From Streptomyces sp. SS1-1 (GTDB taxonomy: Bacteria; Actinomycetota; Actinomycetes; Streptomycetales; Streptomycetaceae): a DNA stretch of 64,000 nt. Below, one piece after another: positions 7,299 through 48,460 of this stretch; the stretch's first letter is position 1; each line of letters begins with the position of its first letter. Under the pieces are notes generated by a model. The model did not search any database, had not been told where the DNA came from, and saw only the letters and a program-made list of their open reading frames with translations. The stretch spans positions 4,256,501 through 4,320,500 of the forward strand of contig NZ_WBXN01000004.1 of the NCBI RefSeq assembly GCF_008973465.1, written 5' to 3'. The position numbers were made by a program, and so were the translations under genes.

Positions 7299-7328
7299 TT
7301 GACGCGCCGCTCGGCCAGACCATACCGT
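7299..7328 (+). promoter_or_regulatory. Probable vegetative promoter of the xylanase gene
   Basis: TTGACG (7299-7304) and TACCGT (7323-7328) are separated by 18 bp. The operator pair at 7341-7372 would begin just downstream of the transcription start, the usual layout for a roadblock repressor. Confidence 0.5.
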
Positions 7329-7340
7329 CCGCCCCACCCC

Positions 7341-7372
7341 CTAATGTTTCGGATGCGTTTTCGAAACATTCG
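7341..7372. promoter_or_regulatory. Double CGAAACATT operator before the xylanase
   Basis: CGAAACATTCG lies at 7362-7372, and its near copy CGAAACATTAG lies on the opposite strand at 7341-7351. Together they make a 9-bp inverted repeat (AATGTTTCG ... CGAAACATT) with centres 21 bp apart. CGAA-N3-TTCG elements before xylanase genes are, from memory, a LacI-type operator in Streptomyces. The same type of pair at the same spacing precedes the lacI gene at 47352. Confidence 0.7.
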
Positions 7373-7398: not shown

Positions 7399-8580
7399 AT
7401 GAGACCCCTTCGTTTCGCCACCGTGGCCCTCACCACCGCGGCACTGGCCCTGCCGCTCCTGGGCGGTTCGGCGTCCGCCGCCCCCAAGGCCGGCCCCAAG
7501 GCGCCGCCGCACGCCCACGCGGCGCCCGACCGGCTGCGCGCGGCCGCCCCCGAAGGTTTCGTGATCGGCTCGGCCGTGGCCGGCGGCGGTCACCATCTGG
7601 AGCAGGACTACCCGGACCCCTTCACGTACGACAAGGAGTACCGGAAGGTCCTGGGGCGGGAGTTCAGCTCCGTCTCGCCCGAGAACCAGATGAAGTGGGA
7701 CTACATCCACCCCGAGCGCGACCGCTACGACTTCGGGCAGGCGGACGCGATCGTCGAGTTCGCCCGCAAGAACCACCAAGTGGTGCGCGGCCACACGCTG
7801 TTGTGGCACAGCCAGAACCCCGCGTGGCTGGAGAACGGCGACTTCACCAAGGCGGAGCTGCGCTCCCTCCTGCACGAGCACATCACCAAGGTGGTCGGCC
7901 GGTACAAGGGGAGGATCCAGCAGTGGGACGTGGCGAACGAGATCTTCGACGACCAGGGCAACCTGCGGACGCAGGAGAACATCTGGATCCGTGAGCTCGG
8001 TCCGGGAATCGTCGCGGACGCGTTCCGCTGGGCGCACCAGGCCGACCCGAAGGCGAAGCTGTTCCTCAACGACTACAACGTCGAGAGCGTCAACGCGAAG
8101 AGCGACGCGTACTACGCGCTGGTGAAGGATCTGCGCGCCCAGCGGGTGCCGGTGCACGGCTTCTCCGTGCAGGGCCACCTGAGCACGCGCTACGGCTTCC
8201 CCGGCGACCTCGCCGACAACCTGCGCCGCTTCGACGCGCTCGGCCTGGAGACGGCGGTCACCGAGCTGGACGTCCGCATGGACGTCCCGGAGGGCTCGCG
8301 CCCGACCGCGGCCCAGGAGAAGCGGCAGGCGGAGTACTACCAGCGGATGCTTCAGGCGTGCCTGGAGGTCGACGGCTGCAACTCGTTCACCATCTGGGGC
8401 TTCACCGACAAGTACTCGTGGGTCCCGGTGTTCTTCCAGGGCGAGGGCTTCGCGACCGTCATGACGGACGGCTTCGGCCGCAAGCCGGCGTACTACGCGC
8501 TGCGCGACACGCTGAAGGACGCCCGCGAGCACGACTGCGGGAAGGGCGGCCCGAAGGGGCCCAGGCCCCCGACGCACTGA
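7399..8580 (+). CDS. Secreted endo-1,4-beta-xylanase, GH10
   Basis: The 393-aa product is a glycoside hydrolase family 10 enzyme that cuts internal beta-1,4 bonds of xylan. Residues 1-28 form a signal peptide ending SASA-A. The catalytic pair is present: acid/base Glu181 in DVANEIFD and nucleophile Glu289 in VTELDVRM. Other GH10 landmarks are SPENQMKWD (93-101) and GHTLLWHSQ (131-139). There is no carbohydrate-binding module; the C-terminus is a short Lys/Gly/Pro tail. It stands alone, with its own promoter, operators and terminator. Its 'GGGHHLEQDYPDPFTYDKEY' segment is less xylanase-typical, so activity on a related polysaccharide remains possible. Confidence 0.93.
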   Translation: MRPLRFATVALTTAALALPLLGGSASAAPKAGPKAPPHAHAAPDRLRAAAPEGFVIGSAVAGGGHHLEQDYPDPFTYDKEYRKVLGREFSSVSPENQMKWDYIHPERDRYDFGQADAIVEFARKNHQVVRGHTLLWHSQNPAWLENGDFTKAELRSLLHEHITKVVGRYKGRIQQWDVANEIFDDQGNLRTQENIWIRELGPGIVADAFRWAHQADPKAKLFLNDYNVESVNAKSDAYYALVKDLRAQRVPVHGFSVQGHLSTRYGFPGDLADNLRRFDALGLETAVTELDVRMDVPEGSRPTAAQEKRQAEYYQRMLQACLEVDGCNSFTIWGFTDKYSWVPVFFQGEGFATVMTDGFGRKPAYYALRDTLKDAREHDCGKGGPKGPRPPTH

Positions 8581-47259: not shown

Positions 47260-47291
47260 CGAAGGTTTCGTTCCCGGTTTCGAATGTTCCG
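47260..47291. promoter_or_regulatory. Double CGAA-N3-TTCG operator before lacI
   Basis: CGAAGGTTTCG (47260-47270) is a perfect CGAA-N3-TTCG palindrome. CGAATGTTCCG (47281-47291) matches with one change. Their centres are 21 bp apart, the same spacing as the pair before the xylanase. They lie 25 nt upstream of a promoter TTCGTC (47316-47321), 17 bp, TACGAT (47339-47344). Confidence 0.65.
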
Positions 47292-48449: not shown

Positions 48450-48460
48450 CGAAACATTCG
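48450..48460 (+). promoter_or_regulatory. Exact copy of the xylanase operator core
   Basis: CGAAACATTCG, identical to 7362-7372, lies 10 nt after lacI and 89 nt before the LCP gene. No partner site is seen 21 bp away on either side. It may be an auxiliary operator or chance. Confidence 0.45.

Follow-up and report, generated by a model that had tools for sequence, protein, structure and literature searches.

Streptomyces genomes often carry orphan LacI genes, and what these control is seldom known. The window studied here, a stretch of 64,000 nucleotides from Streptomyces sp. SS1-1, holds one such gene (lacI) and, 40 kb away from it, a gene for a secreted GH10 xylanase. Each is preceded by a pair of operator-like sites. 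This raises the question of what such a repressor regulates once nothing is left beside it. In this case the target can plausibly be read from the sequence alone: from neighbours that relatives still have, from operators left over in the window, and from the same composite operator at a distant enzyme.

A preliminary description of this DNA had placed the two pairs, each with its centres 21 bp apart, and had proposed that one LacI-type repressor binds both, making the distant xylanase a target of the orphan LacI. Both pairs can be read directly in the sequence where they were said to be (Table 1). The rest of the proposal is supported as well and is probably right, because relatives of this LacI adjoin bxl-type beta-xylosidase and GH10 xylanase genes, because the pair persists ahead of both genes even though the spacers have diverged, because the xylanase pair is present with the LacI and absent without it, and because xylan genes across the genus carry this operator, preferably with a partner at 21 bp. 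New here are the family of the repressor, its lost operon, a relic operator, a genus-wide regulon and a rule on inner half-sites. Sites, spacing, conservation, gene neighbourhoods and co-occurrence are all taken from sequence.

Table 1 Operators, promoter and genes of the proposed LacI-xylanase system, in window coordinates.
Feature	Position	Strand	Details
Predicted xylanase promoter	7299..7328	+	-35 TTGACG 7299-7304, 18-bp spacer, -10 TACCGT 7323-7328
Weak operator of xylanase pair	7341-7351	.	CTAATGTTTCG; outer half degenerate, inner TTCG perfect; centre 7346
Strong operator of xylanase pair	7362-7372	.	CGAAACATTCG; centre 7367
Secreted GH10 endo-xylanase P0002, proposed trans target	7399..8580	+	PF00331, E 3.5e-93
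First operator of lacI pair	47260-47270	.	CGAAGGTTTCG here, CGAATGTTTCG in most relatives; centre 47265
Second operator of lacI pair	47281-47291	.	CGAATGTTCCG; inner half perfect, outer half degenerate; centre 47286
Orphan BxlR-type LacI repressor P0001	47352..48440	+	PF00356, PF13377; 63% identical to bxl-linked LacI
Third operator, directly after lacI	48450-48460	.	exact CGAAACATTCG, ten bases behind lacI stop codon

The weak operator before the xylanase was earlier given as its reverse complement, CGAAACATTAG. Over 15 orthologous promoters, the mean column identity is 98% in the weak operator and 96% in the strong one, with 60% in the 10-bp spacer between them and 67-71% in the flanks; the pairs were gathered by regular expression, which partly imposes the operator identities.

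Just upstream of the pair lies a TTGACG-18-TASCGT element, which we infer to be the promoter. Transcription of the xylanase would then be expected to start at about 7335. The TTGAC and TASCGT parts align and are retained in most orthologous xylanase promoters; a simple sigma-70 scan of the xylanase promoter gave no match. Within the xylanase coding sequence, 189 bp past the strong operator, there is an extra CGAAGGTTTCG at 7551-7561, which could be chance or an auxiliary site.

P0001, the product of lacI, has an N-terminal LacI helix-turn-helix (PF00356, residues 34-77, E 7e-13) and a periplasmic-binding-protein-like sugar-binding domain (PF13377, E 1.6e-40), and its sequence matches the PurR, CcpA and LacI structures. 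There are 24 other LacI-type matches in the genome. The closest, 63% identical, is at C4:7306226, divergent from a bxl cluster of a solute-binding protein, two permeases and a GH3 beta-xylosidase. By position this paralogue is BxlR. The bxl promoter between its gene and the cluster, near C4:7306078, has CGAAAGTTTCG and, 21 bp from it, a CGAA half-site. The recognition helices of P0001 and BxlR are nearly identical over the 12 residues compared.

In a broad sense P0001 would be a BxlR-type xylan repressor: its closest homology is to the LacI beside bxlEFGA, and CGAA-Nx-TTCG operators accompany both lacI and xylan genes. A bxlR in the strict sense is the local repressor of bxlEFGA and adjoins it; no bxl gene adjoins the window lacI. 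Because of this, and because the true bxlR is at C4:7306226, P0001 is filed as an orphan paralogue and not as bxlR itself.

It had been remarked that there is no sugar operon beside lacI. This holds in the window, but it is most simply a derived loss; many relatives have GH3 and GH10 genes there. The sample consists of the 80 nearest Streptomyces relatives of the window LacI, and the fractions describe near kin only: a 21-bp pair lies upstream of lacI, in the divergent promoter, in 77/80 (59/80 have CGAATGTTTCG-N10-CGAATGTTCCG), a divergent GH3 beta-xylosidase gene lies beside lacI in 61, of which 11 also have a solute-binding protein next to lacI, a GH10 xylanase follows directly downstream, before a LytR-type gene, in 33 (29 full length, 4 broken or a remnant), and an exact operator is found behind lacI in 71. 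The lacI-linked GH3 beta-xylosidases have 63-64% identity to the window genome's BxlA proteins.

In 38 relatives, and in the window, the downstream operator is there and the GH10 gene behind it is not. One locus (L042) still has the ribosome-binding-site remnant of the lost xylanase behind the operator. At L046, L049, L060 and L074 a decaying GH10 gene, broken or a remnant, follows an intact operator downstream of lacI; these are intermediate stages of loss.

On the tree of LacI proteins, the GH3 neighbour changes at least six times and the GH10 neighbour at least 13 times. The window nests among GH3-bearing rows, with L043 as its sister, so that most simply its lineage would have lost both neighbours, and the orphan state would be secondary. 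The gene itself is intact and under purifying selection (dN/dS 0.08-0.20), and operators persist on both sides of it despite the lost neighbours.

The operator behind lacI had been overlooked earlier. Its 11-mer has only 4 occurrences in the whole genome. It is apparently the promoter relic of the lost GH10 xylanase that relatives carry here. At the same position the relative G061 has CGAAACTTTCG, and in G027 the site is lost. Also missed was that the operator cores are asymmetric, and point in the same direction in the lacI pair and in opposite directions in the xylanase pair. This matters little, since the operator is a near-palindrome.

The preliminary description further suggested that LacI may regulate itself. 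We are unsure of this, because the lacI-side pair would originally have been the operator of a divergent bxl operon, since lost. The pair might by now be no more than a relic of that operon: LacI would act on the xylanase and on further xylan genes, but would not regulate its own gene through these sites. Relatives have a divergent GH3 or solute-binding-protein gene on the far side of the pair from lacI, and the pair ends some 60 bp ahead of the lacI start. The core of the first site has also drifted, from TGT in most relatives to GAT in G061 and GGT in the window genome (G000), hinting at relaxed constraint. Yet the CGAA/TTCG outer bases are intact in G000 and in most orphan rows, and LacI-type repressors commonly autoregulate. 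A pair that is relic only is possible but somewhat doubtful, and it is compatible with the best explanation for the xylanase.

The xylanase P0002 has an orthologue in 22 genomes of 393. The 21-bp pair is present before it in 15/15 cases where the genome has an orphan-type LacI (at least 85% identity), and absent in 6/6 genomes without one, all six of which have a BxlR-like LacI of 57-60%. One genome with a LacI of 77% has a single site only. A plain Fisher test on 14/14 versus 0/6, before one genome (G343) was added, gives 2.6e-5, with about three independent changes on the tree. Because the tree allows no more changes than that, fewer than a tree-corrected test needs, the co-occurrence is suggestive, not conclusive.

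Four of the six genomes lacking an orphan-type LacI have a different operator in the promoter of the xylanase orthologue: CCGGAAA-N-TTTCCGG, repeated once 11 bp further along.

It was also considered whether P0002 is the lacI-linked GH10 gene, relocated to 7399. This was rejected: it is only 44-45% identical to the linked GH10, and two genomes (G017 and G217) hold both. In several genomes that bear the xylanase pair, lacI has no GH3 or GH10 neighbour, as in the window; others keep these neighbours. Because both arrangements occur, the repressor was probably already acting on the xylanase in trans when it lost its home operon.

The operator is not confined to these two genes. Over 101 Streptomyces genomes, CGAAACATTCG has 145 occurrences, versus 16 for a reversed control. 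Genomes with an orphan-type LacI have 2.8 each on average (2.0 excluding lacI-adjacent sites), those in which a BxlR-like LacI stands alone have 0.63, and those lacking both have 0.42. For CGAAACTTTCG the corresponding figures are 4.4, 0.96 and 0.39. The counts do not support a neat division in which the ACA core belongs to the orphan LacI and the ACT core to BxlR, as both cores follow the orphan LacI.

At the loci that were read, operator sites are intergenic in all but one, according to a simple gene caller. Nearest genes include 11 GH11, 9 GH10, 6 GH43 and 3 GH62 among 60 neighbouring proteins. The remaining strong sites of the window genome lie before a GH11 gene, near C4:7495650, and between GH62 and GH10 genes, near C4:6559800.

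Of 55 loci, 26 have an inner CGAA/TTCG half-site that faces the strong site at a distance of exactly 21 bp; the other distances between 11 and 60 average 0.5 loci. Orthologous promoters recur in this count (several GH11, GH43), and the independent cases are fewer, perhaps five to eight promoter families. If the partner site is imperfect, its inner half is perfect in 20/24, and in none does the outer half match better. Both window pairs fit this rule, with CTAA as the outer half at the xylanase and TCCG at lacI. The GH10 operators behind lacI have no exact CGAA/TTCG half-site at 21 bp, and only a loose CGAAGYCARTCG near that distance.

Outside obvious xylan genes, CGAAACATTCG in two genomes (L240, L245) precedes a gene for a GntR/FCD regulator, from which an MFS gene diverges. 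Three other loci (L254, L263, L265) have an operator common to GH43 and melibiase-type alpha-galactosidase genes, suggesting that debranching enzymes belong to the regulon. A second bxl-type cluster (C4:254000-268000) has its own LacI, 49% identical to P0001. Its promoter has no exact CGAA-N3-TTCG, and carries the variants CGAAAGTTCG and GTTTCGAAAC.

A more general reading, on which we are evenly divided, is that the operator is a composite: a full CGAA-N3-TTCG and, exactly two helical turns off, a second site with only the inner half kept, the two being occupied cooperatively by neighbouring dimers. In this reading the repressor would have lost its home operon repeatedly and lived on by controlling scattered xylan genes in trans, and whether the operator units at its targets are kept or replaced would depend on whether it is itself kept.

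It could also be that in practice BxlR represses the xylanase, with the orphan LacI playing a secondary or redundant part there. BxlR is the repressor that the literature names for CGAANxTTCG sites: CGAAACTTTCG is its site in Streptomyces xylan promoters, it is described as xylobiose-responsive, and deletion of bxlR raised xylanase-promoter reporter output up to 70% (PMC4743123). In SirexAA-E, xylanase promoters pulled down a homologue of BxlR (PMC12772271). The near identity of the recognition helices and the sites in the genome's own bxl promoter are in line with this, and the CGAAACTTTCG sites, which likewise track the orphan-type LacI, do not discriminate between the two repressors. Against it, six genomes keep both a BxlR-like LacI and the xylanase, without orphan-type LacI and without the CGAA pair. 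Moreover, CGAAACATTCG counts track the orphan-type LacI and not BxlR, and the orphan lacI still evolves under purifying selection. We find it unlikely that BxlR is the main repressor here; it may share the same sites with the orphan LacI.

Far less probable again is some other factor on these sites; a catabolite-control protein would be one example, and a protein of the GntR type, like S. lividans XlnR, another. The CGAAACTTTCG motif has been held responsible for glucose control at the xysA promoter of S. halstedii, and deletion of xlnR also raised xysA promoter output (PMC4743123). But that motif is the named BxlR site, and the sites flank and track the orphan-type LacI gene.

A genome scan for paired CGAA-N3-TTCG sites had been proposed in advance. 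With the pattern CGAA-N3-TTCG-N10-CGAA-N3-TTCG over the 7.8-Mb genome, pairs with at most one mismatch are indeed found only at the xylanase and lacI places. Pairs with two mismatches occur at 21 other places, mostly with GC-rich, coding-like cores. Scaled from these, about one pair with at most one mismatch is expected by chance per genome (P about 0.25), and because of that the count is not proof. By itself it is weak and not significant; intergenic position and conservation carry the case. A chance match of short CGAA/TTCG words, for all that such an expectation favours it, is close to negligible as an explanation, and is rejected via conservation and not via genome counts, as the pairs are conserved at both genes across many species though their spacers diverged, and the preference for 21 bp recurs at unrelated target loci.

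The explanation that we prefer, and consider quite probable, is that an orphan BxlR-type LacI has lost its home neighbours and still represses xylan genes in trans. lacI would encode a sugar-responsive repressor which, in related species, locally controls both a bxl cluster (beta-xylosidase and transporter) and a GH10 xylanase. Loss of these neighbours would have left it flanked by its old operators, with the secreted xylanase 40 kb away as first target. A first dimer would occupy the strong site there and help a second onto the weaker one, which is two turns along on the same side of the helix and where the perfect inner half-site would anchor it. As the pair sits just downstream of the predicted promoter, at about +6 to +38, repressor on it would stop promoter clearance or elongation for as long as no oligosaccharide releases it. 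The inducer, by homology, is most likely xylobiose or related xylo-oligosaccharides. LacI binding, cooperativity, inducer and direction of control are what we infer from all this.

If true, this shows clearly how a regulator can outlast the operon it belonged to. A full site with an inner half-site at 21 bp would then be a rule for finding xylan regulons, and it could serve the de-repression of xylanase promoters used as production tools.

Several known LacI-family systems invite comparison. PurR and CcpA, repressors with solved structures, would share the fold of P0001, because the sequence match spans residues 33-361. Their ligands and operators differ from those of P0001.

CebR is the LacI-family cellobiose repressor of Streptomyces cellulases, and like it P0001 is proposed to control dispersed secreted glycoside hydrolases in trans. 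The number of CebR sites tracks lifestyle, and its operator consensus is TGGGAGCGCTCCCA (PMC4898821). Its targets are cellulose genes and its sites are unrelated in sequence to those of P0001; the CebR operator is absent from the xylanase and lacI upstream sequences.

Closest is BxlR, the LacI-family, xylobiose-responsive repressor of bxlEFGA in S. thermoviolaceus, which is SLI7232 in S. lividans and SACTE_0535 in SirexAA-E. P0001 has the same LacI/GalR architecture, has CGAA-Nx-TTCG operators at xylanase and bxl genes, and has orthologues that adjoin a bxl-type cluster and a GH10 gene. Unlike BxlR, it is a separate paralogue linked to tsaD, without a bxl operon in the window lineage, and its operators have an ACA/TGT core and stand in tandem at 21 bp.
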